From Syntrophaceae bacterium (GTDB lineage Bacteria > Desulfobacterota > Syntrophia > Syntrophales > PHBD01), in assembly GCA_013177825.1 (NCBI GenBank), contig JABLXX010000003.1, forward strand, positions 186,001-250,000: a stretch of 64,000 nt of DNA. Direction: 5' to 3'. A model generated the notes under the pieces. It was not told where the DNA came from and searched no databases. It was given only the letters and a program-made list of their open reading frames with translations. The position numbers and the translations under genes were made by a program. Each line of letters opens with the position of its first letter. Within the stretch, counting starts at the first letter, position 1. Shown here piece after piece: positions 1-48,750 of this stretch.

Positions 1-888
1 AAGGGAATTCCCCGACAGGTACCCCGCAAAACGGACTCTCTGATTATTTTCTGCCTGATTTTCCAATTCTTTTCGAATCGGGCCATCGCCGACAACAAGC
101 AGTTCCGCATTCCGGTTCTGCAGTTTTGAAAAAGCTTTAATCAATGTTCTGATTCCTTTTTCTTCAGACAGTCTGCCAAGATAGAGAAAGTATTTACCGG
201 GAGTGTAATTTGGATTAAAGTCAGACAAATTCAAGAAATTTGGGACAAATTCAATTTGATTTTCGGACCAGCCGAAGTCGATTAATTTATGTTTTAAAAA
301 GTGGCTTGGCGATATTAAGTATTTGATGCTTTTCCTGTATTTGTTCAACCGCTCATTAACGTACGATTCCATGGCAATGACGGCCGATGCCCAATAGCTT
401 TCCTTATGACAGCGATTTTTGACGGCTTTATAATATCGTGCCCGCTTGCAATCCTCACAAATGTGACCATTAAACATAAATTTATAGCTTGGGCATACCA
501 GTTTATAGTCGTGCAGTGTCATGACCGCCGGTATTTTTTTCTCCGAAAGAAGGTCAAGGATCGAAGTAGTCAAACGTCCATACATATTATGGACGTGAGC
601 AATATCGGGCTTGAATTCGTCGACCAACTTCTTCAACCTGTCTTTTGCACGGATAGAATAGAATATCTCTTTGATAGTCTTGACTGCCTCCCATGACAGG
701 CTGATCTTGTTTGTCGTAATATCCGGCGGGAAAAAGCGTTCGTATTCCGATGGCATGTCTAGCGAATGCCTGCGGGCAAATCCGGCAACCGGATGGCCAT
801 GCCTTTTCATCATGTCCATCTCGCCGAAAAACACTCTCTCTGACCCGCCGCGCATGTAATAGTAATTATTCAGAAAAATGATTTTCAT
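1..888 (-). CDS. GT-B glycosyltransferase (family 4 type), partial
   Basis: This frame is open for 296 codons from an ATG at 888 to the window edge, so the C-terminal end is missing. The N-terminus (MKIIFLNNYYYMRGGSERVF) has the Gly-rich loop after the first strand that is typical of GT4 enzymes. HVHNMYGR and TLHDYKLVCP follow, and around residue 230 the second domain begins with YLGRLSEEKGIRTLI. The protein should transfer a sugar from a nucleotide-sugar donor to a lipid-linked glycan at the inner face of the inner membrane. It is the last visible gene of the minus-strand polysaccharide cluster. Base composition is AT-rich like its neighbours. Sugar specificity cannot be read from the sequence. 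Confidence 0.85.
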   Translation of the reverse strand, partial: MKIIFLNNYYYMRGGSERVFFGEMDMMKRHGHPVAGFARRHSLDMPSEYERFFPPDITTNKISLSWEAVKTIKEIFYSIRAKDRLKKLVDEFKPDIAHVHNMYGRLTTSILDLLSEKKIPAVMTLHDYKLVCPSYKFMFNGHICEDCKRARYYKAVKNRCHKESYWASAVIAMESYVNERLNKYRKSIKYLISPSHFLKHKLIDFGWSENQIEFVPNFLNLSDFNPNYTPGKYFLYLGRLSEEKGIRTLIKAFSKLQNRNAELLVVGDGPIRKELENQAENNQRVRFAGYLSGNSL

Positions 889-922
889 GAAATATCTTTT
901 TATGGTTATGGGTTAGATGGAA

Positions 923-2230: not shown

Positions 2231-2263
2231 ATATTTGCAGATGCGCGATAAACTTGTGGCATC

Positions 2264-3499
2264 CTATTCTAAAATATTATCCTTTGTTTCGGCGCCTTTG
2301 TTATTAAGAATGCGCACAGGTGCATTGCGGCACCTGTTATGTTTAATGATCATCTTATGATCACCGTCTGCCAATATGCCCGGTTTTGCATCCATGATCT
2401 CGTTGCCGGTTACACGAACAGAACCATGGATATATACGCCGCTGCCCTTCGTATTCGATATCCTGTTTTTTTCTATTCTAATTTCGGATCCGGCGGCAAA
2501 AATTCCATGCCGTCCGATATCACGAATTTCGTTATTTCTTATAAAAACGCCTCTTACCATCGGCAATCCGGATCCTCCCGCATGAATAAAAATGCCGTCT
2601 CCGGCAGTATGAATGATTTTATTGTCAGACGCCGTGATGCTTGTGGCGCCGCCCTTGATACCGATGGCGCCGCGCGTACCGCCGGCGATAATATTTTTAT
2701 GAATGGTGACGTCACTCAGTTTGCCGGTATGACCCAGGGTATCTATCCCAAAAGCGCTGATGCCAAACGACGATCCTTCACATTCAATGTTATTCGCTTG
2801 TATTGTTACGTTTCTGACGGATGCCATCCAGCCGAAGACGGCCAATGGTTCGTCGCAGTGAGATTTCAGCGCGTTGTTTCTTATGATGATATTCCTGGAT
2901 TCCATATTGGTTTGTTGAATTCCGTTACGGACCATTACGGCGCCACCCTGTCCTCTGTTCTCGATCATGTTGTTCTCTATTACGGCATTTTGTATATTGG
3001 CGGACAAATCGATTCCATAATACTTTGTATCCAATGTCATCGATATATTATTAATTTGAAGATCGTTGACATTTTCAAAACGCAATATGCCTGACGAATC
3101 ACCCTTTTGAATTGGAATATTGAAAATTACCCTGAAGGAGCGGAGAAGAATGTTCTTGCCACCATTTCTTTCATTCAAACTCGTTATGAACCGCTGACCG
3201 AAGAAAGGGGACGCTGCTTTCAGGATCGTGTTCGGCCCTGCTCCTTCCAGTATTGTGTTCGATGGTAATACAATTGTCTCGGATATATGATAAAGTCCGG
3301 ACGGTAAACGGATAATATGCTTTCCATTTACAAGCTTGGTTAACTTGGTTAAATCGAATTTTCCCTTTACTTCATCCGTATGTGCAATGGCCGGCATAAA
3401 CAGAATTGCATGTATTAAGGAAATGATTATGAAGTAATTGATGAAATAACTATGATGGCTTGAACTGAGAAACGAGGGTATGCAAGAGGCGTTTATCAA
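2264..3499 (-). CDS. Secreted right-handed beta-helix repeat protein
   Basis: The 411-residue protein begins with a hydrophobic stretch (about residues 18-38, ending near AIAH) that looks like a signal peptide. A pectate-lyase/NosD-like fold follows: LPSGLYHISETIVLPSNTIL, then many PbH1-type coils with N-N-x-I and G-I turns (for example IIIRNNALKS, VTIQANNIECEG, VFIRNNEIRDIG). Such proteins are often polysaccharide lyases, epimerases or binding proteins in exopolysaccharide clusters. No catalytic residues could be assigned. Its start overlaps the stop of the upstream GT2 gene by four bases (ATGA), so the two are translationally coupled. Confidence 0.78.
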   Translation of the reverse strand: MINASCIPSFLSSSHHSYFINYFIIISLIHAILFMPAIAHTDEVKGKFDLTKLTKLVNGKHIIRLPSGLYHISETIVLPSNTILEGAGPNTILKAASPFFGQRFITSLNERNGGKNILLRSFRVIFNIPIQKGDSSGILRFENVNDLQINNISMTLDTKYYGIDLSANIQNAVIENNMIENRGQGGAVMVRNGIQQTNMESRNIIIRNNALKSHCDEPLAVFGWMASVRNVTIQANNIECEGSSFGISAFGIDTLGHTGKLSDVTIHKNIIAGGTRGAIGIKGGATSITASDNKIIHTAGDGIFIHAGGSGLPMVRGVFIRNNEIRDIGRHGIFAAGSEIRIEKNRISNTKGSGVYIHGSVRVTGNEIMDAKPGILADGDHKMIIKHNRCRNAPVRILNNKGAETKDNILE

Positions 3500-4428
3500 A
3501 ATGGTTTATCCTTCAAGCGCCAGGCGTAATACGTAAGCCTGTTCATGCGCGATCCCCATAAGAATTTTCGAATTCTGGAGGGAGTGCAAACGCCGCAGGA
3601 CAGCATTTGACGGGCTATTTGGTAATTTCCGCTAAGTACATGCTGTCTTGCATTTTCAAGCTTCAATCGTCCGATATATAAATTAATATCATTTTCATTG
3701 AGAGCCGTTGGTTGTTTGTTGCAGAATGTTTTATAGGATTCGACAAATGGATGTTCGTCAGCTTCAGTGAATTTTACATTACATGCTCTATTTTCTGCTT
3801 CCTCATGATAAATGGCCCCGATCATCGTTGAATATGCGATTGGGTAGCACAATGCAATTCTGGCCCACAGATCCAGGTCCTCCCCCATTCTTCTTCCAAT
3901 GCGGAACATGCCAACTTTATTGAGAACACTTCTTGGTATGCAGACTGCAGACGAACATACCGGCGGGGTTCCAAAGGCTGCTGCCCTGAAGTAATTCGGC
4001 ATGATGCCTTCCCAAGGTGGTGGAGGTATGAATTTGAAATTCACAGCTTCTATGTTTCCATTTGAGTGCATCTTTTCATATGCTGCCGCATAAAGACCGG
4101 CTTGCGGGTATTTATTGACAAGCATCATGATTCTTCTCAGGAAATCCGGCTTCCATTCGTCGTCGGCGTCAAGAAACGCGATGATCCTGCCCATTGAGTG
4201 CCTGATCCCCGCATTCCGGGCTTCAGACACGCCTTTGTTTTCCTGCCGGATCAGTTTCAATTGTAAATCGTGAATGCTCCTTACGATGTCTGGACCATTG
4301 TCCGTTGATCCGTCATCGACGACAATCAGTTCCATGCCCTGCATTGCCTGAATGGAAACGGAATGTATTGCCCGTAATATATAGGGTGCTTTATTATGGA
4401 GAGGTATGACAACGGAAATATCAATCAT
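3496..4428 (-). CDS. GT2 family glycosyltransferase
   Basis: This is a GT-A fold enzyme of 310 residues. The first strand is ISVVIPLHNKAPYILRAI, the nucleotide-binding segment is LIVVDDGSTDNGPDIV, and the metal-binding DXD-type motif lies in IIAFLDADDEW at about residue 90. A downstream segment MGEDLDLWARI carries the ED pair expected of the catalytic base region. It probably adds one sugar of the surface polysaccharide repeat unit on the cytoplasmic side of the membrane. Its stop overlaps the start of the beta-helix gene by four bases, and a gap of about 100 bases separates it from the pyruvyl-transferase-like gene upstream. Confidence 0.87.
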   Translation of the reverse strand: MIDISVVIPLHNKAPYILRAIHSVSIQAMQGMELIVVDDGSTDNGPDIVRSIHDLQLKLIRQENKGVSEARNAGIRHSMGRIIAFLDADDEWKPDFLRRIMMLVNKYPQAGLYAAAYEKMHSNGNIEAVNFKFIPPPPWEGIMPNYFRAAAFGTPPVCSSAVCIPRSVLNKVGMFRIGRRMGEDLDLWARIALCYPIAYSTMIGAIYHEEAENRACNVKFTEADEHPFVESYKTFCNKQPTALNENDINLYIGRLKLENARQHVLSGNYQIARQMLSCGVCTPSRIRKFLWGSRMNRLTYYAWRLKDKPF

Positions 4429-4535
4429 ATGTTCTTGGCAACTGCTTTATTCGGATCTGTCATCATAAATCAATGCCTGTTTTTGTCGTACGCATAATTA
4501 TATATTTATAGCCGGCATGATTGCTTTCATGTACC

Positions 4536-5690
4536 TCAAGCGAACGAGAAATTAAGCATGGAGAGCTTTTCCGCTTCCGGGTAACTCAATCGGGGATAGT
4601 TGTAATGCCCATCCGAGATCTCAAGAATGAGATCCCTCAGGTAGTCGACGTCCAACGCGGTACTGTCGATCATGTAACGCTCCGCCAATCCGATCTGCGA
4701 CGCCCAGCCCCGGCATTTGGGGTGATAGGTTATCATCATGGTAGGAGTATTCGTAATGAAACCGAAGACGGCCCCATGCAGCCTCATCGCAAGAAGTAAG
4801 CGAAGGTTTCCGATTTCTTTTAACGTCTGGAGAGGATCCGCAAGGTATGGGATGTGCCTGACTTTAACATCGTGTGAAATTTCTTGCTCTATGTCTCGAT
4901 GAATGGATGCATCTCCAAAGTATCGATGACCATTGAAGTCTATGAAAACAACCTCATCCATGATTTCTTTCGAAATTTTTTTAATTACATTGATAATGAC
5001 TTTTCGCCTTGCCATTTCATTTGCTCGGTCGCCTCCTGTGTATCTTTCGTAATCACATAGAGCAATTCCGATCCCTTTGCGCTCCCTGCTGCTTTGCAGG
5101 AATGGCTCAATGGCGGTATTGCATGACCTTGGCAGTAATGGCGCCAAGTCAAATGTCTTTTTATAATAAATATTTTTCGACATGGATTGGGCAATATCGA
5201 CACTTTCTTGATCTCTTAATCCTACAAAAGACAACCGCTTCAGTAATTCTTCACAGCACACTTCCGATGCCTTGTCGCGAAAAGGACCAAGGGAGACACC
5301 GATCGCATAGTGAGGCCCCCTTCCCGATAACTTTAGTAACTCCATCTTGTGCTTTATGTCCCGGGCCGTATGGAAAATTGATCCTCCGCCAAATACAATG
5401 GTTTTTACCCCAAGTGCAGTGATACACTCCGTCAGCCTGTGTTGTCCCGGTAAAAATTGCTTATATCTTAGAATTGGAGTGGCCAGCTTGCAATTCACAA
5501 TACTTGGAACCTTCACGGCAGATGCCAGAAGCTTGTGAGGTTTGATGAATGTTCTGGTGCCCCAGCTGGCAACCGCAAGAAGACAGTCGTCCCCTGTATT
5601 ATCCATTCCATAGTATCCCGATATTAAAGCCATTTTCTTTTCACGGTGATTAATATTATGATTCAAAACGATGCGGTTGAATATTTTCAT
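4536..5690 (-). CDS. Polysaccharide pyruvyl transferase family protein
   Basis: The 384-residue protein has the family's N-terminal loop GYYGMDNTGDDC. It also has a GGGSIFHT segment near residue 100 and a C-terminal AMRLHGAVFGFITNTPTMMI segment, the R-L-H motif shared with CsaB and WcaK/AmsJ enzymes. Family members transfer ketal pyruvate from PEP onto a sugar of a cell-surface polymer. The start at 5690 overlaps the stop of the upstream flippase gene by four bases. A second ATG lies 20 codons in (MALISGYYG) and would start directly at the fold. The donor and acceptor are inferred from the family only. Confidence 0.78.
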   Translation of the reverse strand: MKIFNRIVLNHNINHREKKMALISGYYGMDNTGDDCLLAVASWGTRTFIKPHKLLASAVKVPSIVNCKLATPILRYKQFLPGQHRLTECITALGVKTIVFGGGSIFHTARDIKHKMELLKLSGRGPHYAIGVSLGPFRDKASEVCCEELLKRLSFVGLRDQESVDIAQSMSKNIYYKKTFDLAPLLPRSCNTAIEPFLQSSRERKGIGIALCDYERYTGGDRANEMARRKVIINVIKKISKEIMDEVVFIDFNGHRYFGDASIHRDIEQEISHDVKVRHIPYLADPLQTLKEIGNLRLLLAMRLHGAVFGFITNTPTMMITYHPKCRGWASQIGLAERYMIDSTALDVDYLRDLILEISDGHYNYPRLSYPEAEKLSMLNFSFA

Positions 5691-7018
5691 TTATAGAGAC
5701 TTCGTTGTTTCAATAAATGCCTTGATATACCGAGACTGTAAATTATAATTGCGGTTCCATGGGATATCAGTAACGCCCAGGCTGCACCGATTGTGCCGTT
5801 TGCAGGGATTAGTACATGGCAAAGAAGTATGCTCAGTATGCTGCCTGTAATTACAGCATGGAAATACATTTTTTCCAGTCTCGCCGACAATGCATATTGC
5901 GAAGAAACGATTCCAACGGCAAAAAGAAATAAATAAATACCCATAACAGGAAGTGTGTCTGCTGCCGCATGATATTCAGGCCTGAAAAGTAATTTAAAAA
6001 CAACTTCGGGGGAAAAAATCATGAAAAGCACCACCGGGGTGACCACAACAATCATCACTGAAAAATATTTGATCAGAAATTGTATCTGATCGGACTTTGA
6101 TCTTCCGGATTTTGTGATCCTCGCCACAGCAGGACGCCCAACTCGCGAAACCTGATCCAGGAGGAGGGTGCCCGCGATTACAAACTGCCATGCCGCCGCA
6201 TAGCCACCAAGTTCCGCATAGCCGCAGTATTCTTTTAAGATAACCTGGTTTATCATTGCGGTTACCAGACCAGCGATTGCCGAAAACCAAATGAAAGTGT
6301 TGTTCCGAAATAGCCAAACAATGCCGTTTGCCAGCTCGGAATAGCTTTCTTTTCTACTTTTCATTCGTCTCATTACAAAATTATGCTGTAAAGCAAGGTA
6401 TAGAACCACACTGATCAGTAACGATGAGCCTATGAATAAAATTGAAAAAGAATCTTTTAATATAAAAATGCCGATCCATATAAGTATGAGGTAAAAGAAT
6501 TTTTGAAAAAGAAAGAATATGGCATGCAACTTTATGTTTTGTCGAACATCATATACTGGTTGCAGATCGAGTGATAATATTGCTGTCGCTGTAATAATGA
6601 GGAATACGCCCCAAGAGATGTAATACTGCAGAAATAGAAGCTTCAAGGTCAGCAAAGCGGAAATAGTAATGATAGTTAATATATAGCGCAAAAACAGGCT
6701 TGCCCGTACTAATGCTGAAAAACGATCGGGATAATGAATAAGGTCGCGCACAAGTGTGCGATCCAGACCAAAACGAATGAACACCTGCAGGAATGTGCCG
6801 ATAACTACTGCAAAGGCAAATTGCCCGAATGCATCTTTACCGAGGGTATTTGCAATTTTAATTTGCGTCAGCCAACCCGCGGCGGCAATAATAATATTTA
6901 CAAAAACAAGAAAAGATACGTTCTCTATGCTGGATCTGTAAAAAGTTATCAGTTCATTGACCTGATCATTCATCGAACCGACATCAAAATACTGTTTGAG
7001 TGACATAAAAAACGGCAA
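5687..7018 (-). CDS. Oligosaccharide flippase (Wzx/MOP superfamily)
   Basis: This is a 443-residue polytopic membrane protein with roughly a dozen hydrophobic segments. The N-terminal region (WLTQIKIANTLGKDAFGQFAFA) matches the first helices of polysaccharide_synt/Wzx flippases. It should move undecaprenyl-pyrophosphate-linked repeat units from the inner to the outer leaflet of the cytoplasmic membrane. It is the second gene of the polysaccharide cluster and is coupled by ATGA to the pyruvyl-transferase-like gene. ATG codons occur at 7018 and four codons later (MSLKQYF), and neither has an obvious strong ribosome site. Composition is AT-rich. Confidence 0.82.
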   Translation of the reverse strand: MPFFMSLKQYFDVGSMNDQVNELITFYRSSIENVSFLVFVNIIIAAAGWLTQIKIANTLGKDAFGQFAFAVVIGTFLQVFIRFGLDRTLVRDLIHYPDRFSALVRASLFLRYILTIITISALLTLKLLFLQYYISWGVFLIITATAILSLDLQPVYDVRQNIKLHAIFFLFQKFFYLILIWIGIFILKDSFSILFIGSSLLISVVLYLALQHNFVMRRMKSRKESYSELANGIVWLFRNNTFIWFSAIAGLVTAMINQVILKEYCGYAELGGYAAAWQFVIAGTLLLDQVSRVGRPAVARITKSGRSKSDQIQFLIKYFSVMIVVVTPVVLFMIFSPEVVFKLLFRPEYHAAADTLPVMGIYLFLFAVGIVSSQYALSARLEKMYFHAVITGSILSILLCHVLIPANGTIGAAWALLISHGTAIIIYSLGISRHLLKQRSLYK

Positions 7019-7136
7019 GAGATCCTAAATAAAGTTAAGTTATTGTTTGCTTCCAACCACCAATTGTATGGGGCATGCACAAGTCAATGATTGGAGAAAG
7101 AGACAATGATCGATATTCGCGAGTTGCATATACGAA

Positions 7137-29540: not shown

Positions 29541-30700
29541 AAGAACATAGAGACTTCATCATCGAAAACGCCCGCATCGTAACGCCGGAAGGAACCCTGG
29601 ACGGTGCCTCCGCTTCCATCCGCCAGGGACGCCTCTACAAGATCCGCGACGGATCCATCGGCAACGGCGGGATGCGCATCGACGCGGGAGGCGGCTGGCT
29701 GTTGCCGGGTTTCATCGATATGCACAGCGACGCCCTGGAAAAGGACCTCGAACCCCGGCCCAATGCGCTCTTCCCCCTGGACATCGTCCTGTACGAGCTC
29801 GACAAGAAGCTTGCCGCCTGTGGGGTGACGACGATTTACCACTCGATCTCCTTTGCGGAGGATGAAATCGGGGTCCGGTCCAACCGCATGGCCGCCGGCA
29901 TCATCTCGAAGATCCGGGACACGGCGGAACGGCTCCATGTGCGGACCCGGGTGCACGCGCGGTTCGAGATCAGCGACGGCGCCGCGATCCCGCAACTGGA
30001 GTCGCTGCTGGAGGAAGGGAAGATCCAGCTCCTGTCCATCATGGATCACTCGCCGGGACAGGGGCAGTTTCGCGAAGTCGTGTCCTTCCGGAATTACTAT
30101 CAGGCCGTCTACCGGAAAACGGACGAGGAGCTCCGCGCCATCATCGATCGGAAGCGGAAGGCCCGCAGGCACATGAAGTCCAACCTTGAACGGATCATTC
30201 AGTCCTGTCGCCGGTCCGGCGTTCCGATGGCCTCCCACGACGACGACTGCCGGGAGAAAATCGAGTGGCTCTGCGAGCAGGGCATCGGGATTACGGAGTT
30301 TCCCGTCAACATGGAGGCCGTCCGCACCGCCAGCGAAAGAGGATTGTTCGTCTGTCTGGGTGCGCCCAACATCGTCCGGGGCAATTCCCAGGCACGGAAC
30401 CTGAGCGCCCGGGACGCCATCGCGGCGGGCTGCGGCGACATCATCTGCTCCGACTACGCCCCCATGAGCATGCTGCACGCCGTCTTCACGCTGGACGGGC
30501 TGGGCATCCTGCCACTGCACCGGGCCGTGAACATGGCGAGCCTCTTTCCGGCAAGGGCCCTCGGGATCGAGGACGAAACGGGTTCCCTCGAGGAAGGCAA
30601 GGCGGCGGACCTGGTCATGGTCCGGAACGGAGGCGGGGTTCACCGGATCTGCAAAACATGCATCGAGGGAAGGGAGATCTTTGCGACATGGTTGAAATAG
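29537..30700 (+). CDS. phnM: C-P lyase amidohydrolase PhnM
   Basis: The 387-residue amidohydrolase contains LLPGFIDMHSDALEKDLEPR (HxD-like metal site), HDDDCREKIEWL and ICSDYAPMSMLHAVFTL. PhnM removes pyrophosphate from 5-triphosphoribosyl-1-phosphonate to give the 5-phosphoribosyl substrate of PhnJ. It overlaps phnL by four bases and the next gene by 13 bases, so the isomerase-like gene is certainly in the same transcript. Confidence 0.94.
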   Translation: MKEHRDFIIENARIVTPEGTLDGASASIRQGRLYKIRDGSIGNGGMRIDAGGGWLLPGFIDMHSDALEKDLEPRPNALFPLDIVLYELDKKLAACGVTTIYHSISFAEDEIGVRSNRMAAGIISKIRDTAERLHVRTRVHARFEISDGAAIPQLESLLEEGKIQLLSIMDHSPGQGQFREVVSFRNYYQAVYRKTDEELRAIIDRKRKARRHMKSNLERIIQSCRRSGVPMASHDDDCREKIEWLCEQGIGITEFPVNMEAVRTASERGLFVCLGAPNIVRGNSQARNLSARDAIAAGCGDIICSDYAPMSMLHAVFTLDGLGILPLHRAVNMASLFPARALGIEDETGSLEEGKAADLVMVRNGGGVHRICKTCIEGREIFATWLK

Positions 30701-31611
30701 GCAGTAAAATTGACGAGGTCCGGATCGACGGGCGGCTGGACCCGCTCCGCCGGGACCTGAATGAATTTAACGGCCTGGAACTGGAGGCGGTGGAACTGCC
30801 CGTCCACGGGCTCGACGCTGTCGTTCACGGCCGCCTTCATCACCGACGGCTCGAGGAGTTGAAGACGCTTCTCTGGGATTACGGATTTGCGTACACCGTT
30901 CATGCGCCGAACCCGCTTAACCTGATGGACGACGACAACCGGACCCTACACGAAAGCGTGTTCCGGGCCAGCCTGGAGTTTGCCTCCGAGATCGGCGCAG
31001 GCGTAGTAGTCTATCATGCCGGCCGTTACGTCTCCGAGGAGCGGTTCGCCGTTCCCGGTTACCTGATGCTGTCGGAGGAGGAGCGGCGAGACCTGCTCGA
31101 CCGGGAGGCCCGGGCTGTCCGCGACCTCGCCGACGAGTATCCCGCCGTCTGCATCTGTATCGAGAACGCGCGTCCCTATCTATACCATTCCCCCTATTGC
31201 TATGCCGAAAATCCCCGGGAGCTGCTGGAGCAGGTCGTCCGCATTGCCAGGCCCAACGTCCGCATCAACCTGGACGTCGGCCATCTCTACCTGGCGGCGG
31301 GGCATTACGGCTTCGATCCCGTGGAAGCGGCCGCGGAGATTCGGGAATTTGTCGCCCACGTGCACGTCCACGATAATTTCGGCCTTCCGGTCTATTACAC
31401 GGAAAAGCAGCAGACCCACCTCGTCCCCTTCGGGCGAGGCGACGCCCACATGCCCGTGGGCTGGGGGGAAGTTCCCATCGGGGCGATTCTGAAGACCTTT
31501 GCCGGCTCCTACGATGGCCTGATGATCACGGAACTGCGAAGCCGCTATTTTGATTACACAAAGGAGTCCGTAGAGAATCTGAAGGCGATCCTGCGAAACC
31601 TGCAGGCATGA
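30688..31611 (+). CDS. TIM-barrel sugar phosphate isomerase/epimerase-like protein
   Basis: The 307-residue protein shows the AP_endonuc_2/xylose isomerase-like fold: YTVHAPNPLNLMDDDN, VVVYHAGRYV, CICIENARPYL, VRINLDVGHLYLAAG, FVAHVHVHDNFG and MITELRSRYF. These supply the His, Glu, Asp and His metal ligands expected of the family. It is fused into the C-P lyase operon by a 13-base overlap with phnM. PhnP and PhnN, which normally process the cyclic ribose phosphate product, are missing, so this gene may act on that sugar phosphate. The exact reaction is unknown. Confidence 0.72.
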   Translation: MVEIGSKIDEVRIDGRLDPLRRDLNEFNGLELEAVELPVHGLDAVVHGRLHHRRLEELKTLLWDYGFAYTVHAPNPLNLMDDDNRTLHESVFRASLEFASEIGAGVVVYHAGRYVSEERFAVPGYLMLSEEERRDLLDREARAVRDLADEYPAVCICIENARPYLYHSPYCYAENPRELLEQVVRIARPNVRINLDVGHLYLAAGHYGFDPVEAAAEIREFVAHVHVHDNFGLPVYYTEKQQTHLVPFGRGDAHMPVGWGEVPIGAILKTFAGSYDGLMITELRSRYFDYTKESVENLKAILRNLQA

Positions 31612-33245: not shown

Positions 33246-34733
33246 TTACAATGCGGGGCCTTCCGGTACGTGGGTGATGGAATATTCGAAATGTCTCTGC
33301 CCGAGTCCGGGACCCCGCCCGTAGTAATGCCACTTCGGGAAGTTGAAATCCGACGTGACGGACCGGGGGAGCAGCACGACCGCCTTGAGGAAGGCTTCGA
33401 GGTCGGGCACGTTGTAGATGTTCAATTCGTATCCCCACTTCTCCAGTTTATTGATGATATCGTGCTTTTCGGACGCCCTCCAGTTGACGGAGAAGCGGTT
33501 GATGCCCCACCCGTGAAGGGTATCCAGGACGGCCAGCGCCCGGGTCGGGGCGCCGATGATGACGGGGACGAGAAAATCGACGGGACACTGGATGATGGCC
33601 CCCGGGAACGCCTCCGTGAGTTTGCGGAAACCTTCCCTCTGCAATACCTCGACGGTCCCGTTGAACCAGAGGCGGCGCTCCGGCATGCCCGCGTTTCTCA
33701 AGATCGTAAGAATGCGGTCGAGCAGGTGCCCGTTTTCCTTCAGATCCAGCTTGAGGGACTTTCCCCCTTCCTGATAAATTACAAGAGCATCCTCGATCCG
33801 GACGAACGGCTCGTCGGGGTCCGGCGGCGTTTCCCGGAAGGAGTCGTTGCGCAGAATGACATGTTCGCCATCCGGATCGAAACGGACATCACATTCGGCC
33901 CACTCGATGCTGGAGGCCATGAACTGCCTCAGGTTGGCCTCGTCGTTCACGCCGTGCCAGACGAACTGAACGTGTCGCGGCAGCGATTTTTCCGGCACCA
34001 GTTCCGTGATGTCGTAGTCCCGGCCCGCCACCGTCCGCACCGGCAACTGCGTACGCTTGGAGCGGAAGATCGTGTGGGCATGCAACAGAAGGATATCGTC
34101 GGCGTCGTCCATTTCCGCGATGGCCTGCAGATTTTCAGGCTCGTTGTCCACAAAAGCGATTACGTGGTAGCCCATGCGGCGGAAATGGCGAATCCCCTCC
34201 GCCTTCTCCTCGAGGATCCCCTCGTTCCAGCCGCGCCGGTTCATGAAGAGATGTTCGCTCAGGAAACTCACTTTGTATTCCCTGCCGATGTTGTTGAGCG
34301 AGAGCAGCGTTTCCCTGCGGATCGGTTCGGGGCGGCCGGTGTTGAGACCCACGTGGGTACGGGGCTGGATCTCGAACCAGCGGATGACGTCCATGACCCC
34401 TGCAAAGGGCCGATGGGAGCGCAGGATATTCTCCTGCGACCAGCACCGCTCCTCGTACCAGGCCAGGACGTCCTCCTGCGGAGCACCGTGGATACCCATC
34501 GATTCCAGAACCTGTTCCACATGGCTCTCGCAGGACGTAACATCCTTGATGGCAAGCTCCGCAAACCAGTCCGTGCCGTGCGCCCGGTCATAGGACTGCA
34601 GGGTGTAATGGATCATGTAACGGGAATCGAGGATCGTGCCGTCGATGTCGAACAGGATCATGAGTTCGTCATCGGGATAACGGCGACGCATCCGGTCATA
34701 GTGCTGAGACAATCTCTGCATCCAGGAACTCAT
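33246..34733 (-). CDS. HAD hydrolase fused to FAM151/GDPD-like domain
   Basis: The N-terminal 220 residues form a HAD domain: MILFDIDGTILDS (nucleophile DxD), GLNTGRP and VIAFVDNEPEN (acidic pair region). After a linker, residues about 255-490 resemble the FAM151/menorin family (PLC-like phosphodiesterase fold): VWHGVNDEANLRQFM, IEWAECDVRF, GKSLKLDLKEN and LWFNGTVEVL. A HAD phosphatase joined to a phosphodiesterase-like barrel suggests stepwise release of phosphate from a diester. There is no signal peptide, so it should be cytoplasmic. AAGGAG precedes ATG 34733, and a Pho box lies about 210-230 bases upstream. Confidence 0.72.
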   Translation of the reverse strand: MSSWMQRLSQHYDRMRRRYPDDELMILFDIDGTILDSRYMIHYTLQSYDRAHGTDWFAELAIKDVTSCESHVEQVLESMGIHGAPQEDVLAWYEERCWSQENILRSHRPFAGVMDVIRWFEIQPRTHVGLNTGRPEPIRRETLLSLNNIGREYKVSFLSEHLFMNRRGWNEGILEEKAEGIRHFRRMGYHVIAFVDNEPENLQAIAEMDDADDILLLHAHTIFRSKRTQLPVRTVAGRDYDITELVPEKSLPRHVQFVWHGVNDEANLRQFMASSIEWAECDVRFDPDGEHVILRNDSFRETPPDPDEPFVRIEDALVIYQEGGKSLKLDLKENGHLLDRILTILRNAGMPERRLWFNGTVEVLQREGFRKLTEAFPGAIIQCPVDFLVPVIIGAPTRALAVLDTLHGWGINRFSVNWRASEKHDIINKLEKWGYELNIYNVPDLEAFLKAVVLLPRSVTSDFNFPKWHYYGRGPGLGQRHFEYSITHVPEGPAL

Positions 34734-34916: not shown

Positions 34917-34961
34917 AGTCTATGGAAGGATTGTCTCGGGAGGATGACAAGGGGATGAAAG
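34917..34961 (-). promoter_or_regulatory. Pho box and -10 of the HAD fusion gene
   Basis: On the minus strand, CTTTCATCCCC and TTGTCATCCTC follow at an 11-bp step (34940-34961). A weaker CCGAGACAATC comes next, and TAGACT (34917-34922) sits at the same distance as in the pst promoter. The leader to the ATG would be about 175 bases. No gene lies in this divergent 346-base gap. Confidence 0.75.
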
Positions 34962-35018: not shown

Positions 35019-35052
35019 CCTTCATCGGCCTGTCACATTCCCCCTGTAGGGT
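35019..35052 (+). promoter_or_regulatory. Pho box and -10 of the 819-residue gene operon
   Basis: CCTTCATCGGC (35019-35029) and CTGTCACATTC (35030-35040) form a PhoB-type pair. TAGGGT (35047-35052) lies ten bases after CTGTCAC, as expected for the -10. The ATG at 35080 follows with GGGGAGG as ribosome site. Confidence 0.72.
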
Positions 35053-35079: not shown

Positions 35080-37539
35080 ATGAGCCGCTTTCAGGAAAGC
35101 ACAAGCAGCAGGATTTTTCAGATTGAGCACACGGCGGACACTCTCCCGTCGCAGGGCCGGATGATGGCCATGCTGGGCGTCCGCGCCGGCGCAACCGGCA
35201 CGGACATCGAAACGCTTCCCTTTGCAATGCGCGATACGACGGCGGGAAGCGAGACGGAGCTCCAGGCCGCCGTGCTCGGCCAGAGAAGCAATGTGGATCT
35301 GCCGCTGACTATCGAAGCCTCCAACTACTTCGCCAACATCATCCGCCGCGCCGCTGCCGGGGACACGAAAAAGAGAGTCATCACGGACCTGGAGAGTTAT
35401 CTGGATTCCGGAACGGAGCAGTTGTGGGAAAACAGCTGGGTCCGCTTCCCCCGGTCCTCCCTCGGACCGTTTGCCTGGGAGGTATGGCAGCGGGACCTGC
35501 TGGCGGACAAGAATAATCCCGCCCTGGGGAATCGAAGCGACGCGGACAGGTTCGTCTGTTCGCGCGGGAACCAACTGGAGCTTCGGGTGCCCGTAAGCTA
35601 TCTGCTGAAGCTGTCGCTGGCGGAGGCCCTGGATGCCGGAAGGGGCTTGCCCGATCCGATCCGGGAGACCGGCCTGAAGCTCCTGGAGCATTTTCTGAAC
35701 GACAATACGTCACCGGAGACCTTTTCCTTTTCCATCACCGGCCTGTGCCCGGAAGAGGGCATGGGGCGGGCCGTTGCCGGAGAGATGTCCGAACGGTACC
35801 TCTTCACGCAGCTTCTCATTCAGTATGCCAACGAGAAGTTCGGCCTGACCTCCGGCGGCCAGAGGGCCCTGGTGTTCCACTCCCCTCATCCGCCGATCCG
35901 CCAGAAAATGCTGAATGACTGCATCTCCGATGCCTTCTATCGGGAGTTGTTCATGAGCCCCTGCCTGTCCGGATGGAACCGGGGGGAAGAAAAATACGAG
36001 TACATGCACCTGTGCCACCGGGTGCTCAGCCGCAGCCAGCTCAATGCGGTGGGAAAACTCCGGGAGGCGGGCATCGTGACCAGCAACCTCGTGACGCTTC
36101 CCAATACGTCGAACATCAGCCTCGCCAACAACGGGACCCATGTCAGCTTGGGGAGCCGCCGGATCGGCGCCGCCATGGCGGACCCGTCCTCCAGGTTCAA
36201 CGCGGCCTGCGAAAAATATCTGGGAGACCTGGCGGTCAAGATCGTGGAGCATTTTCTGCCTCTGTTTGTCGGGACGTACAGCGCCGCTCCGTACCGGCTC
36301 GATTTTCTCGATTTTCACGCCGAAAAGGCCCTGGGGTTCCTTCCCCACGAACTCGACTATACCCATCTGCGGATGCTCTGGCGGCGCTGGCAGAAGAAGG
36401 CCGGCATCCGGGTGTTCGGCCGCCCCGTCACCCCCTTCGGCCCCCTGTGGCTGGACCGTTTTCTCCGCGGGCTGTTCTCCCTGAAGGGAGATTACCTCCC
36501 GGATTACCGGCTGATCGATTACCTGGTGGCCATTCTGAGCACCGAGCGGAGCCCGGCCCTGGACGGCCGCCTGCACAACGGCGACCGCCTGAAGCACGAC
36601 CTCCAGGACCTCGGCGTCTTCGACGCCAAGATGTCCCTCTACCTCCTTGAGAAGCTCCGGGAATACGACGTGATGGGGTTCTCCGGGTTCGAGGCCCGCC
36701 ATTACAGCCTGTTCGAGAGCTTCGAGGAGGACGCCGCCCGGGCGGTCAATCTCCAGAACCTGCTGTACTGTCTTGCGTTCAAGTACATCGCCCAGGGTAC
36801 CGTCACCCATGACCGGATTCCCGATTCGCCCGTCATCGAAAGCGAGCGCCGGCAGATCCTGTTCGGGGCCGCCATCGGCATTCCGACGTTCTACGTCCGC
36901 CAGGACAGCGCCAACCGGTTTCTGAAGAGGATTCTGTCCCGTACCGGGAGAACCCGCTCCAGCCGCCGGTATCCCGGATACGTCCGGGTCCATAATCTGG
37001 AATACCGTCGGGCCCTGGTGAAAATTCTCCGGGAAGAGGCGGCGGACCTGATCGAAATGCTCGGCTTCGCGGAAACAATCGAGGATCTGGAAAAACGCCT
37101 GGAGGATCCGGAGAGCCTGAGCGCGGCGGGGAAAATCACCCGAGCCGTCCTGCGCGGGAAGAAGTCCCCCCATCCGCTGGCTTTGCCGGCGGGCGAGTTC
37201 AACCGGGCCGCGGAAGCCTATTACCGGCAGGACCTGCGGATCCTCCATATGAAAGAGGCCTTCCGGTTTCTGGAGGAGAAAGTTGCGATGCTGGGTGCAG
37301 CAAATCGGCGGCTGCGGCCCGGATCCGGGCAGGCCCTGCGGGTTGTGCTGGGAGACCGGGATCCGCTGGAGTTCCTGGATCTGGCGCGGCGGGGCGTTCT
37401 CGAAGAAACGGCAGCCGAGCCCGTTCTGTTGAACCTTCTATTGCTGATGGTGATCGTGATCCATGAAAACAAACTGCATGACCAGCCCCTGGTGGACCCT
37501 TTCGACCCCGAGTCCGTCCGCGTCGCATCAGTATATTGA
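35080..37539 (+). CDS. Unrecognised 819-residue protein, Pho-box controlled
   Basis: I do not recognise this family. The protein is soluble, with no signal peptide and no clear TM except a hydrophobic patch near the C-terminus (LLNLLLLMVIVIHENKLHDQ). Notable segments are QLELRVPVSYLLKLSLAEAL, HSPHPPIRQKMLNDCISDAF, EYMHLCHRVLSRSQLNAVGK, LPNTSNISLANNGTHVSLGS, LDFLDFHAEKALGFLPHELD and a late Arg/Lys-rich part. Many conserved-looking His, Asp and Arg residues suggest an enzyme. It has a good ribosome site, normal codon use for the region and a Pho box. It overlaps the phosphatidylserine decarboxylase gene by 77 bases, so the two are probably functionally tied. Confidence 0.6.
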   Translation: MSRFQESTSSRIFQIEHTADTLPSQGRMMAMLGVRAGATGTDIETLPFAMRDTTAGSETELQAAVLGQRSNVDLPLTIEASNYFANIIRRAAAGDTKKRVITDLESYLDSGTEQLWENSWVRFPRSSLGPFAWEVWQRDLLADKNNPALGNRSDADRFVCSRGNQLELRVPVSYLLKLSLAEALDAGRGLPDPIRETGLKLLEHFLNDNTSPETFSFSITGLCPEEGMGRAVAGEMSERYLFTQLLIQYANEKFGLTSGGQRALVFHSPHPPIRQKMLNDCISDAFYRELFMSPCLSGWNRGEEKYEYMHLCHRVLSRSQLNAVGKLREAGIVTSNLVTLPNTSNISLANNGTHVSLGSRRIGAAMADPSSRFNAACEKYLGDLAVKIVEHFLPLFVGTYSAAPYRLDFLDFHAEKALGFLPHELDYTHLRMLWRRWQKKAGIRVFGRPVTPFGPLWLDRFLRGLFSLKGDYLPDYRLIDYLVAILSTERSPALDGRLHNGDRLKHDLQDLGVFDAKMSLYLLEKLREYDVMGFSGFEARHYSLFESFEEDAARAVNLQNLLYCLAFKYIAQGTVTHDRIPDSPVIESERRQILFGAAIGIPTFYVRQDSANRFLKRILSRTGRTRSSRRYPGYVRVHNLEYRRALVKILREEAADLIEMLGFAETIEDLEKRLEDPESLSAAGKITRAVLRGKKSPHPLALPAGEFNRAAEAYYRQDLRILHMKEAFRFLEEKVAMLGAANRRLRPGSGQALRVVLGDRDPLEFLDLARRGVLEETAAEPVLLNLLLLMVIVIHENKLHDQPLVDPFDPESVRVASVY

Positions 37540-38521
37540 CCGCGGGAGCCGCGCCGTTCACGAAGAGCATCTCTACGGAGACCGGGTCGTCCGCTTTCTC
37601 TATTCGCCCCTGCGGGAGCATGCCCCCCTCCTGTTCCGCGCCCTGACGGGCCGGCGCATATCGTCACTCCTGGGATTCTTTAACTACGAGGGATTCCTGA
37701 GCGGGAGGCTGGCCGATCCGGAGGAATTTATGAAAAAGGCCGGAATTGACCCCCGGGAATGCCTTGATCCGCCTATCCGGCTCGACACGCCGAAAAAAAT
37801 CTTCGAGCGGAAGATCCGCTACTGGGAGTGCCGCCCGATGCCGAATGATCCCGCCGCCGTCGTGTCCCCAGCCGATTCGAGAATGCTGGTGGGATCCCTC
37901 GACGAGACGTCCAGTCTCTTCATCAAGGGAAAATTCTTCGACCTGGGGGAACTGCTGGGAAAGCGGCGATGGCGGGAGGCCTTCGAGGGGGGATCCTTCG
38001 CCGTTTTTCGGCTCACGCCGGACAAGTATCATTACAATCATGTCCCGGCGGCGGGAAAAGTCGCCGATTTTTATCCAATCGACGGGCATTACCACGCCTG
38101 CCATCCGGAGGCGGTTGTCTCTCTGGCGCGTCCCTTCTCGAAAAACAAGCGGGTCGTCACCGTCGTCGACACGGACGTTCCGGGAGGGACCGGGGCGGGC
38201 ATCGTGGCCATGATCGAGGTCGTCGCCCTGATGATCGGAGACATCGTCCAGTGTTACAGCAGGAAACGGTATGATGAATCCCTCGCCGTCGGTAAGAACC
38301 TGTTCCTGAAAAGGGGTTCTCCGAAAAGCCTTTTCCGTCCGGGCAGCAGCACCGTCGTTCTCCTCTTCGAGAGGAACCGGGTTCGCTTCGCCGAGGATAT
38401 CGTCTGGAACATGCGCCGCTCCGGCGTTAAAAGCATCTATACACGGGGATTCGGACAGCCCCTCGCGGAAACGGAGGTTTTTACCCGAAGCAGCATCGGG
38501 ACGTCGTTGGGCAAAACGTGA
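37463..38521 (+). CDS. psd: Phosphatidylserine decarboxylase family protein
   Basis: From ATG 37463 the protein has 352 residues, but the recognisable domain begins near QYIDRGSRAVHEEHLYG at residue 23. It contains VVSPADSRMLVG (SPADG-type motif), FRLTPDKYHYNHVPAAGKV and the self-cleavage site in FRPGSSTVVLLFE, where the Ser becomes the pyruvoyl group. Known enzymes convert phosphatidylserine to phosphatidylethanolamine at the membrane; some homologues act on other substrates. It overlaps the upstream unknown gene by 77 bases. The canonical LGST is GSST here, which is acceptable. No ribosome site is obvious, so expression may depend on coupling. Confidence 0.85.
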   Translation: MKTNCMTSPWWTLSTPSPSASHQYIDRGSRAVHEEHLYGDRVVRFLYSPLREHAPLLFRALTGRRISSLLGFFNYEGFLSGRLADPEEFMKKAGIDPRECLDPPIRLDTPKKIFERKIRYWECRPMPNDPAAVVSPADSRMLVGSLDETSSLFIKGKFFDLGELLGKRRWREAFEGGSFAVFRLTPDKYHYNHVPAAGKVADFYPIDGHYHACHPEAVVSLARPFSKNKRVVTVVDTDVPGGTGAGIVAMIEVVALMIGDIVQCYSRKRYDESLAVGKNLFLKRGSPKSLFRPGSSTVVLLFERNRVRFAEDIVWNMRRSGVKSIYTRGFGQPLAETEVFTRSSIGTSLGKT

Positions 38522-38542: not shown

Positions 38543-39046
38543 GTGAATACCGATTTCAGGAACAGGATCCGTCAGACGCTGGCCAGCCGACTCGAGGCGC
38601 TTCAGGGAACCGCCTGCCGCACCGTCTCCGCCATGAAGGACGGCGCGGAACCATGCGCCGATCCGATGGACCATGCAATCCTTGAACACGACCGCCAGGT
38701 CGAGTTGACGATCCGCGGACACGAGCGGAGCGTGATCCGGAACATCCAGGAGGCGCTTCGTAGAATCGACCGGGGATTGTTCGGGATTTGTGTCGTCTGC
38801 GGATCGTCCATCGGAGAGAGGAGGCTGCTCGCCGAGCCGACGACCCGCCTCTGCAGGAGCTGCCGGGAGTTGGAAGAGTCCGGGGAGCGGGATGGCCGGA
38901 ATGGGTCCCGGGGCACGCCCGTCGTCGATGCCTCAAAGGGGTTTCAAAAGGGAGAAGCGGGAGAGGCTCTCCCGTCTCACGAGAAGAGGCGCAAGGGGCC
39001 CCATTCGCATCAGCGCCGCGCCGTTGAGGGAGGAACCGGGCGATGA
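38543..39046 (+). CDS. DksA/TraR-type zinc-finger protein
   Basis: The 167-residue protein has a helical N-terminal coiled-coil region and the C4 zinc finger CVVC-x17-CRSC at about residues 92-114, preceded by IQEALRRIDRGLFGICVVCG, the DksA/TraR signature. The acidic tip DxxDxA of E. coli DksA is not evident. The tail after the finger (about 45 residues) is long, basic and low in complexity. DksA-like proteins bind RNA polymerase's secondary channel and tune transcription during starvation. It follows psd by 21 bases and overlaps the next gene by four bases. Confidence 0.8.
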   Translation: MNTDFRNRIRQTLASRLEALQGTACRTVSAMKDGAEPCADPMDHAILEHDRQVELTIRGHERSVIRNIQEALRRIDRGLFGICVVCGSSIGERRLLAEPTTRLCRSCRELEESGERDGRNGSRGTPVVDASKGFQKGEAGEALPSHEKRRKGPHSHQRRAVEGGTGR

Positions 39047-40101
39047 TCGCCAACATGCTGTTTGTCGTGGTTCTGGGAGGAGCGCTTTATACGCTGCTGT
39101 TCTGGGGATTCCGGACGCTTCCCGGGGAATCCTGGCAGATCGCCGCCTGCATCCCCAGGATTCGAAACGCCGACGGCCGCTGGGACGGCCTGAACCTGAC
39201 CTGGTACGGGTTTTTCACGGCGACAGCCTATGTCCTGGCCGTGGCCGTCCTGCTGGTCCTTCTGTCCTCCATCGGCGTACCGCCACTGCTGACGCTCCTG
39301 ATGGTCCTGGCCGTGCTGGTTCTCTGCGTCCCCGCGTCCCGCCTCATTGCGGGGTGGGTCGAAGGAAAGCGGCACACTCTCACCGTCGGCGGCGCTTCCT
39401 TCGTCGGCCTGCTGGCTGCGCCCTGGGTCGTCCTGCTCGCCGGGGCCGGATCGGAGCGCTTTCTGGGGCGACCGGTCGAAATCATGGCGGTCCTGGCGGC
39501 CATGTCGATTTCCTACGCCCTGGGGGAAGGAATCGGACGGCTCGCCTGTATCAGCTTCGGCTGCTGCTACGGGAAGCCCCTCTCCGACGCATCCCCGTTT
39601 GTCCGGAAGATCCTCGGGCCTTTCCACTTCATCTTCCGGGGGGAGACGAAGAAAATCGCCTACGCCCACGGCTTGGAGGGATGTCCGGTGATCCCCGTCC
39701 AGGGGATGACGGCCCTGCTGTACACCACGGCGGGCCTTATCGGGATCGTTCTTTTCCTGGAGGGCTGCCGGACCGCCGCGTTCATCCTGACCCTTGCGAT
39801 TACCCAGGCCTGGCGGGTTCTGTCCGAGTTTCTGCGAGCCGATTATCGGGGAGAGCAGCCCTTTTCCGCATACCAGGCCATGGCCCTTGCGAGCGTATGT
39901 TACGGCCTGTGCCTGACGTTTCTCTTCCCCGAAGCTTTACCCGTAGGTGGAGCTGACATCAAAGCGGGCCTGGCATCCCTGTTGCAGCAGTCCGTGATCA
40001 TCTTCCTGCAGGTCCTCTGGACGGCCCTGGCGTTTCATACGGGCCGAAGCAGCGTGACAGCCTCCCGCATTTCCATTCATGTCCTGAAGGAGAAAACCTG
40101 A
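39043..40101 (+). CDS. Lgt-like (prolipoprotein diacylglyceryl transferase family) membrane protein
   Basis: This 352-residue polytopic protein carries GEGIGRLACISFGCCYGKPL at about residue 165. This is a version of the Lgt signature in which the GRxGNFxNGE loop is replaced by a Cys-Cys-Tyr-Gly loop. A family-like VPVQ/PVIPVQGMTALLY and RVLSEFLRADYRGEQPFSAY follow. Lgt uses phosphatidylglycerol to lipidate prolipoproteins, but this branch may transfer a lipid or glycerol group to something else. It is a paralogue, not the housekeeping Lgt, judging by the altered motif and the Pho-linked operon. Confidence 0.72.
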   Translation: MIANMLFVVVLGGALYTLLFWGFRTLPGESWQIAACIPRIRNADGRWDGLNLTWYGFFTATAYVLAVAVLLVLLSSIGVPPLLTLLMVLAVLVLCVPASRLIAGWVEGKRHTLTVGGASFVGLLAAPWVVLLAGAGSERFLGRPVEIMAVLAAMSISYALGEGIGRLACISFGCCYGKPLSDASPFVRKILGPFHFIFRGETKKIAYAHGLEGCPVIPVQGMTALLYTTAGLIGIVLFLEGCRTAAFILTLAITQAWRVLSEFLRADYRGEQPFSAYQAMALASVCYGLCLTFLFPEALPVGGADIKAGLASLLQQSVIIFLQVLWTALAFHTGRSSVTASRISIHVLKEKT

Positions 40102-46938: not shown

Positions 46939-47898
46939 GACGCCCGAGATCGGGATCGTCAGAATCCAGGCCCAGATGATGTTTCCGGCGACGCCCCAGC
47001 GGACGGCGGATAATCTTTTCGTCGCTCCGACGCCCATGATTGCGCCGGTGATCGTATGGGTCGTGCTCACGGGAATTCCCGCCAGGGAGGCGCCGATGAT
47101 GGACATGGCCGCGGCGGTTTCCGCACAGAAGCCGCCCATGGGCTGCAGCTTCGTGATTTTGGTCCCCATTGTCTTGACGATCCGCCAACCCCCCGACATG
47201 GTTCCCAGGGCAATGACGGTGTAGCAGGCAATGATCACCCAGTAGGGGATGTGAAACGTCGGACCGAGATAGCCGCCACTGAAAAGAACCAGCGCGATGA
47301 TGCCGATGGTTTTCTGGGCGTCGTTCATGCCGTGGCTGATGCTGTAGACGGCTGCAGATACGAGCTGCAGCCTTCTGAACAGATGGTTGGACGTGCTCAC
47401 GCTGCCGAAACGGGTGAGGTTCAGAACAACGACCATTAAAAAAAGTCCGAGGATCAGACCGATTACCGGAGAAAAAACGATAAAGCTTGCTGTTTTGATG
47501 ATTCCTTTCCAAACAAGAACGTCGAATCCCCCCCTTGTGAGACCGGAACCGATCAGTCCTCCGATCAGGGCGTGGGAGGAACTGCTTGGCAGGCCGAACC
47601 ACCAGGTCAATAAATTCCAGATGATGGCGCCTCCAAGGGCCGATATGATCAGCGTGTTGTTGACGATCGACGTGTTGATGATGCCGGTTCCGATCGTTTT
47701 CGCCACGTGTGCGTCGAACAGGAAAACGGCCACGAAATTGAAGAAGGCGGCCCAGATGACGGCCTGATGGGGCTTCAGGACCTGCGTCGATACGATGGTT
47801 GCGATCGAGTTGGCGGAATCATGAAATCCGTTAATGTAATCGAAGATCAACGCAATGATGATGATGGATATGACGATGGCCAGCGTCGGATCGATCAT
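46894..47898 (-). CDS. pit: Inorganic phosphate transporter, PiT family
   Basis: The 334-residue membrane protein has the PiT signatures DYINGFHDSANSIATIVSTQ near the N-terminus and SHGMNDAQKTIGIIALVLFS in the second half. IPVSTTHTITGAIMGVGATK is also present. These duplicated GANDxAN-like motifs bind phosphate, and transport is coupled to protons or sodium. Its gene is preceded, with a four-base overlap, by a helical-bundle membrane protein gene in place of the usual PhoU-like (DUF47) partner. It converges on and overlaps the hybrid kinase gene. Confidence 0.93.
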   Translation of the reverse strand: MIDPTLAIVISIIIIALIFDYINGFHDSANSIATIVSTQVLKPHQAVIWAAFFNFVAVFLFDAHVAKTIGTGIINTSIVNNTLIISALGGAIIWNLLTWWFGLPSSSSHALIGGLIGSGLTRGGFDVLVWKGIIKTASFIVFSPVIGLILGLFLMVVVLNLTRFGSVSTSNHLFRRLQLVSAAVYSISHGMNDAQKTIGIIALVLFSGGYLGPTFHIPYWVIIACYTVIALGTMSGGWRIVKTMGTKITKLQPMGGFCAETAAAMSIIGASLAGIPVSTTHTITGAIMGVGATKRLSAVRWGVAGNIIWAWILTIPISGVLSAGLYLLLTAIFE

Positions 47899-48635
47899 GT
47901 CGATTCGTTCTCATTGTCGGATTCGGGTTCGACAGGTTCGGGGGGAAGATCGTTGAGGATCGACCGGGCGTTGTAGATCCCGAAGCCGATGCCCGCCAGA
48001 ACCAGGAAAATCAGGAAGGCGGAAAAGCTTTGGTATGCTTCCAGTCGTGTTTTGGCGAGTGTTTCAGCAGCATGCAGGCGGTTGTTCGCCTGAACTTTGA
48101 GCATGCCGACCATGGCATCGATTTTATCCGTCGGCTCGCGATCGATCCCCCGGACCATTTCATCCACAAGGACCGCGCTTTTCAGGTCGGAGTGCCTGTA
48201 GTGCTTCAGGGCGTCCCGATACCTGTGTCCCAGCTGCTGGTGGATGCTGATCGTTTCCGGGATCTCGGGAACGGACAGACCCATCGTTGCTGCCATGTTC
48301 AGCAATGATTGCAGATACTCGCTGACTTTCCTGTCCTCCTCGTCGAAGGCCCGCACGTGAAAGTCATAAAGGTGCGGATCGTTGCCGCGCAGGAGAAGGT
48401 TTTTCCACTCCTGGACCTGTCTTTTGAAGTGAACCTGTGCCTGCCGTCCGGCATCGACGGCTTTGATCAGCTCCTGCCCTTCCAATACGGTCGCATGAAG
48501 GCGCTGGTTGGTTTCCACGACGGCGATGAGGCCATACAAGCCGATCACGATGGTCATGACGACGAATATCCCGATCGCAATGACGACCCGCCGGCGAAGG
48601 GAAATATCCTGAAAAGAAGTATCCGGGACTTTCAT
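47895..48635 (-). CDS. Two-TM four-helix-bundle sensor-like protein coupled to pit
   Basis: From ATG 48635 (AGAGG upstream) the protein has 246 residues. TM1 (VVIAIGIFVVMTIVIGLYGL) is followed by an extended helical periplasmic domain (about 40-195) like chemoreceptor or kinase sensor bundles. TM2 (FSAFLIFLVLAGIGFGIY) leads to a short acidic tail, with no kinase, HAMP or methyl-accepting part. ATGs at 48692 and 48716 are in frame, but 48716 would lie upstream of the predicted transcript start. It shares ATGA coupling with pit. It may modulate the transporter or a separate signalling partner. Confidence 0.7.
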   Translation of the reverse strand: MKVPDTSFQDISLRRRVVIAIGIFVVMTIVIGLYGLIAVVETNQRLHATVLEGQELIKAVDAGRQAQVHFKRQVQEWKNLLLRGNDPHLYDFHVRAFDEEDRKVSEYLQSLLNMAATMGLSVPEIPETISIHQQLGHRYRDALKHYRHSDLKSAVLVDEMVRGIDREPTDKIDAMVGMLKVQANNRLHAAETLAKTRLEAYQSFSAFLIFLVLAGIGFGIYNARSILNDLPPEPVEPESDNENEST

Positions 48636-48705
48636 GGAGATATTGCCTCTGATTTTAACCGGCTCTTGTATTTTATCCACGTTCCTTTTCATGCCTGGCA
48701 GGGGC

Positions 48706-48750
48706 TGTTTAAACAAAATATGTTACAGGAGGATGACAATGCGGTGAAAA
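48706..48750 (-). promoter_or_regulatory. Pho box and -10 of the pit operon
   Basis: On the minus strand TTTTCACCGCA, TTGTCATCCTC and CTGTAACATAT follow at 11-bp steps (48718-48750). Ten bases after CTGTAAC lies TAAACA (48706-48711) as -10. The element is nearly identical to the pst box and places the transcript start near 48699, which argues against the first in-frame ATG at 48716. Confidence 0.83.

Follow-up and report, generated by a model that had tools for sequence, protein, structure and literature searches.

The analysed window was a stretch of 64,000 nucleotides on contig JABLXX010000003.1 of a Syntrophaceae bacterium, in which an open reading frame of 819 codons, here named gene X, was followed on the same strand by a paralogue of psd, a DksA-like gene and a gene for an Lgt-fold membrane protein, LgtL. 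Two Pho boxes separated gene X from a divergently transcribed HAD-type gene. The features at the locus, in window coordinates, were as follows.

33246-34733, minus strand: divergent HAD-type phosphatase-like protein of 495 amino acids, with sub-threshold HAD matches.
34944-34961, minus strand: Pho box CTTTCAT-CCCC-TTGTCAT, facing the divergent HAD gene.
35019-35036, plus strand: Pho box CCTTCAT-CGGC-CTGTCAC, 43 bases upstream of gene X.
35080-37539, plus strand: gene X, 819 amino acids, ATG start, with a predicted GCS/GS (carboxylate-amine ligase) fold of a putative new family.
35251-35259, plus strand: codons of E58-x-E60 in gene X (motif GSETELQ), predicted metal ligands, invariant in 51/51 homologues, in predicted strand 53-67.
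36139-36141, plus strand: codon of H354 in gene X (NNGTHVSLGS), invariant in 51/51, in predicted strand 353-359.
36691-36699, plus strand: codons of E538-x-R540 in gene X (SGFEARHYSLF), invariant in 51/51, in predicted strand 536-542.
37463-37539, plus strand: 77-base overlap of gene X and psd, a possible translational coupling, recurrent in relatives.
37463-38521, plus strand: Psd paralogue of 352 amino acids, a pyruvoyl-type decarboxylase (PF02666, E 6e-38), the dedicated partner of gene X.
38342-38350, plus strand: predicted self-cleavage and pyruvoyl site G-S-S of the Psd paralogue, from alignment with E. coli LGST.
38543-39046, plus strand: DksA-like C4 zinc-finger protein (PF21157/PF01258).
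39043-40101, plus strand: LgtL, Lgt-fold membrane protein (PF01790, E 1e-9), third gene of the cassette.

The frame at 35080-37539 is a real, strongly conserved gene, with a ribosome site GGGGAGGAG upstream of its ATG, a codon-position GC content (0.64/0.43/0.80) in the pattern of the adjoining genes, and homologues that are full-length open frames of 52-62% identity. No match to the encoded protein was obtained in Pfam or NCBIfam at E≤1, the profiles PF04262 and PF04107 included, nor in PHROGs, nor among PDB sequences in phmmer and profile searches, and the description in the earlier note of an 819-residue protein unrecognised by sequence thus stood. For all 51 aligned homologues, PF04262 and PF04107 were likewise absent among the Pfam matches at E≤5. 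A weak match to NifB at the motif LSRSQL (E 0.8) was dismissed as chance.

A pattern scan of a collection of 84,980 species, with one genome per species, returned 339 stretches encoding gene X, from which 80 loci were kept as the locus set. These belonged mostly to Syntrophales, Geobacteraceae and Desulfuromonadales, with single loci labelled Brocadia, Acidobacteria and Desulfomonile. The family is compact (pairwise identity median 57%, minimum 49%), and bridging homologues sought by an alignment search in 297 genomes of the phylum amounted to the same compact family and one 41-residue fragment. The distribution was patchy, gene X being missing from the one same-genus genome searched. The fold and each of the partner families are already known; it was for the putative ligase family of gene X and the three-gene cassette that no description turned up in the literature searched, which consisted of openly readable papers.

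The AlphaFold model of gene X, built from 51 homologues, had a mean pLDDT of 84.9 and a pTM of 0.89. Its top 14 Foldseek matches against the PDB were GshF, GshA, yeast GCL and PafA, with a modest best E-value of 0.0066 and probabilities of 0.84-1.0, or 0.51 in the case of yeast GCL. By VIA-align, E. coli GshA (1v4g) matched with Z 17.2 and an rmsd of 4.2 over 416 aligned residues, YbdK with Z 15.3-15.7, PafA/Dop with Z 11-14, plant GCL with Z 11, yeast GCL with Z 8.7 and type III glutamine synthetase with Z of about 6.4; every row with Z of at least 5.8 belonged to the GCS/GS superfamily, and the first unrelated row had Z 4.0. Rather than a transferase or hydrolase fold, a match to which the earlier note had named as a guide for assays, the model by both methods shows the fold of the carboxylate-amine ligases.

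The catalytic motifs of the superfamily, G-x-E58-x-E60, G-x-H354 and E538-x-R540, were invariant in the 51 homologues of gene X. Their counterparts are E27 and E29 (GLERET), H150 (GVHYNF) and E328/R330 (YIEVRSL) in GshA, and E17 and E19 (GIELEMQ), H136 (GQHVHVG) and E237/R239 (TVEVRVMD) in YbdK, the residues being matched by motif, strand and alignment range and not by superposed coordinates. Residue 51 of gene X aligned on residue 10 of YbdK, so that E58 and E60 fall onto E17 and E19. In GshA, the Glu, His and Arg residues of these motifs bind metal and substrates. Near the expected place of the third metal ligand of GshA, E67, gene X has E79, conserved in only 39 of the 51 homologues. With hhalign, the gene X profile matched neither the GshA nor the YbdK single sequence significantly, and since the sequence searches were also without match, the superfamily placement rests on structure and motifs. 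Because no profile of a known family matches the protein and hhalign was not significant, gene X is placed on its model as a putative new family within the GCS/GS fold superfamily, neither GshA nor YbdK, and most likely encodes an ATP-dependent carboxylate-amine ligase.

The 77-base overlap of gene X with psd, reported in the earlier note, is real, the exact figure depending on which psd start codon is chosen. The start of Psd (conserved HQYI) precedes the end of the gene X stop codon in 56 of the 77 relatives with psd on the locus, and translational coupling of the two genes is possibly a recurrent trait. Coupling of this kind is also what would speak for gene X as a catalytically dead scaffold or regulator, stabilising the Psd paralogue by co-translation; such a role is very unlikely in view of about 145 invariant columns in the alignment of 51 divergent homologues, all three superfamily catalytic motifs among them. 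In the Psd paralogue, the catalytic Asp, the His and the GSST cleavage site are kept in the alignment of 73 orthologues. A canonical psd is present elsewhere in the same genome, and the cassette gene is for that reason regarded as a dedicated paralogue; it reached no NCBIfam equivalog cut-off (142 bits against 371 at best). Members of the Psd family can use free amino acids, as fungal PsiD acts on tryptophan (PMC6121855), and phosphatidylserine thus need not be the substrate of the paralogue.

In 76 of the 80 loci, psd lay directly downstream of gene X, and in one further locus about 5 kb downstream (L038). The three others (L021, L024 and L036) carried the same psd paralogue, 64-65% identical, elsewhere in the genome, and were accordingly rejected as counter-examples. 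These counts, which answer the earlier question whether homologues always neighbour psd, support the joint function with psd that had been proposed with it. In L021, L024 and L036, which are related MAGs, gene X was found near an alpha/beta hydrolase, an EAL-GGDEF gene or PhoB.

At 39043-40101 lies a third cassette partner that the earlier note missed, the Lgt paralogue LgtL. Of the 80 gene X loci, 70 contained LgtL, several of the others being cut by contig ends. Among the 297 genomes of the phylum, gene X was detected in 31 and as the 41-residue fragment in one more, the Psd paralogue and LgtL each in 32, these being the same genomes, so that the three genes coincide in 32/32 genomes with adequate sequence. 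One genome with psd and lgtL and apparently without gene X (G156) was rejected as an exception, as its contig ends 146 bases beyond psd, and this end, read by eye, corresponds to the C-terminus of gene X. The patchy distribution of gene X suggests horizontal transfer or loss, and might be taken to mean that the three genes are neighbours by chance or co-transfer, inherited together with no functional coupling; we consider this extremely unlikely, since the three are retained or lost as a set in about 30 genera from many families, even in genomes where they no longer adjoin.

The model of LgtL (pTM 0.92) matched E. coli Lgt (5azb) with Z 13.6 over 238 residues, the next row having Z 4.6. Against TIGR00544 the protein scored 26.6 bits, the cut-off being 118.9, and a canonical lgt is present elsewhere in the genome. 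According to the alignment, LgtL keeps the equivalents of Lgt R143, R239, E243 and R246, and in the protein of this window V, C and T stand at the positions aligned with H103, N146 and Y235. In E. coli Lgt, enzymes substituted at H103 or N146 are inactive, substitution of H103, N146 and Y235 inactivates the enzyme or cuts its activity, and H103 has been proposed to act as the base towards the cysteine of the lipoprotein (PMC4728403, PMC8689077). Because the arginines of the phosphatidylglycerol site are kept and H103, N146 and Y235 are lost, LgtL probably retains phosphatidylglycerol as the donor of diacylglyceryl and passes this group to an acceptor that is not a lipoprotein. An invariant FGCCYG with a cysteine pair lies at the N-G-E part of the Lgt signature.

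As Lgt normally modifies a peptide cysteine, and PafA and Dop share the fold of gene X and are among its structural matches (Z 11-14), gene X could be pictured as a PafA/Dop-type protein or peptide ligase, or deamidase, that attaches a tag to a lipoprotein or membrane protein, LgtL lipidating the peptide. This is quite improbable: LgtL is without H103, N146 and Y235, no small tag protein occurs among the recurrent neighbours (ORFs of at least about 100 amino acids), and the Psd partner would have no obvious role.

Other genes were also encountered within the cassettes. The DksA-like gene is included in many Syntrophales, either between psd and lgtL or just before gene X (for example L018, L031, L044 and L046). 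Orthologues of the divergent HAD-like protein sit between psd and lgtL in three loci (L083, L088 and L094), and this protein, which has its own Pho box in the window and a C-terminal half without family assignment, is possibly a fourth partner. In another locus, a protein of about 820 amino acids with PHP and GT4 glycosyltransferase parts, resembling lipid glycosyltransferases, was located between psd and lgtL (L138:5011-7473, minus strand), and its orthologues were near 18 of the 80 gene X loci.

Pho boxes were sought in the window and the homologous loci. For the window, a matrix was derived solely from the sites that precede pstS, phnC and the PHO4-transporter operon. The best two non-training sites in the window, 34961(-) with 20.1 bits and 35019(+) with 18.2 bits, were both in the gap between gene X and its divergent HAD neighbour, and the Pho box earlier assigned to gene X was thereby confirmed by an independently trained matrix. 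The best window site not upstream of a phosphate gene reached 13.7 bits, and the background rate of such scores was 0.0014-0.0045 per kb of strand. Upstream of gene X in relatives, a site of at least 11/14 was present in only 4 of 66, and the Pho box was rejected as a general feature of the family; judged from these upstream regions, it is a property of this genome, and phosphate control is not general. PhoB-class regulators were near gene X in 17 of the 80 relatives, and most Geobacteraceae loci showed no Pho box or PhoB neighbour.

The window itself constitutes a phosphate island, with a PhoB-class regulator, PstS and permease, a histidine kinase, phn genes, PhoH, a second PstS-like protein and a PHO4 transporter. 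Strong tandem Pho boxes at 48739 and 48750 on the minus strand lie before the gene at 47898-48722 (275 amino acids, no Pfam match), which precedes the PHO4 transporter. Immediately behind the amidohydrolase gene that closes the phn cluster, 30190-31611 encodes a TIM-barrel protein with weak similarity to the cobamide phosphodiesterase CbiR. Third-position GC was about 0.40-0.52 in window positions 1-7024, against about 0.8 over most of the remaining window, and this part is likely a foreign stretch.

Taken together, we consider it somewhat probable that a new ligase family acts with dedicated Psd and Lgt paralogues in making or modifying the head group of an amino-lipid, a pathway that in this organism would be controlled by PhoB. 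This reading draws directly on the predicted fold, the invariant motifs, the three-gene association, the residues kept or lost in the partners, the Pho box and the phosphate neighbourhood, and from these we infer the ligase activity, the lipid product and the order of the steps. Gene X, with metal ions held by E58, E60 and E538, would activate a carboxylate by phosphorylation and couple it to an amine; the Psd paralogue would serve the same pathway as a dedicated pyruvoyl decarboxylase, and LgtL would take diacylglyceryl from phosphatidylglycerol and attach it to an acceptor that is not the cysteine of a lipoprotein. The three proteins together would build or decorate the head group, and PhoB may turn the pathway on at phosphate starvation as part of the phosphate-scavenging island.

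The product could tentatively be specified as a phosphorus-free mimic of phosphatidylethanolamine (PE), though we hold this to be unlikely in its particulars. An amino acid of the cysteine or serine type would receive diacylglyceryl from phosphatidylglycerol through LgtL, its decarboxylation by the Psd paralogue would then leave an aminoethyl thioether or ether lipid, and gene X would cap or extend the amine by amide formation. Such a lipid would suit Pho control, and if true, it would add a third way of making phosphorus-free amino lipids to those that lead to betaine and ornithine lipids. Under phosphate limitation, a sulfate-reducing anaerobe makes phosphorus-free glyco- and aminolipids (PMC5193443).

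In another arrangement of the steps, to which we likewise assign a low probability, the Psd paralogue supplies PE, whose amine gene X links to an amino acid such as glutamate to yield an N-aminoacyl phospholipid, and LgtL acts separately in envelope repair. The Psd active site kept in the paralogue, a gene X fold suited to amide formation on an amine, and the link of gene X to psd, which is the tightest of the three, would agree with this arrangement; however, extra PE would need no second enzyme when a canonical psd is present, LgtL is as obligate as the Psd paralogue, and a phosphate-containing product fits the Pho box poorly.

In the favoured reading of an amino-lipid pathway, a testable enzyme class is assigned to a large and strictly conserved family that is unnamed in the databases searched, and proteins likely annotated as plain Psd and Lgt in Geobacteraceae and Syntrophales would belong to a different pathway. 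In anaerobic sediments, phosphorus-free lipids are read as a sign of phosphate limitation. Should the product be a phosphate-sparing aminolipid, it would be a new lipid class in these environments.

Among known systems, the BtaAB pathway of betaine lipids and the OlsBA/OlsF pathways of ornithine lipids are comparable in their Pho-controlled synthesis of a phosphorus-free amino lipid, but the cassette showed no enzyme recognisable as one of theirs. The pupylation enzymes PafA and Dop have the fold in common with gene X, whereas no tag protein or proteasome genes were seen near gene X, which has other partners. Canonical Psd of E. coli shares PF02666, the Asp, the His and the G-S cleavage site with the cassette enzyme, which nevertheless is a separate paralogue, far below the equivalog cut-offs and always with gene X and LgtL. 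Lgt and LgtL have the fold and the arginines R143, R239 and R246 in common, yet LgtL differs in being without H103, N146 and Y235 and in having the invariant FGCCYG. With YbdK/GCS2 (PF04107), of which no member was found in the genome carrying gene X, gene X shares the fold and a similar first strand (GIELEMQVV against GSETELQAAV in gene X) and His strand (GQHVHVG against GTHVSLG); gene X is about twice as long, without a profile match, and has other neighbours. GshA of E. coli (1v4g) and the GCL domain of GshF agree with gene X in overall fold (Z 17 over about 410 residues), with E-x-E, G-x-H and E-x-R in the same order and a His-to-Glu spacing of 184 in gene X against 178 in GshA. Unlike GshA, to which it is 12% identical, gene X is without a Pfam match, is longer by about 170 residues in the segment that separates the first strand from the His strand and that carries the family-specific motifs NDNTSPE, FYRELFM, CLSGW and LSRSQLNAV, and is linked to paralogues of psd and lgt.
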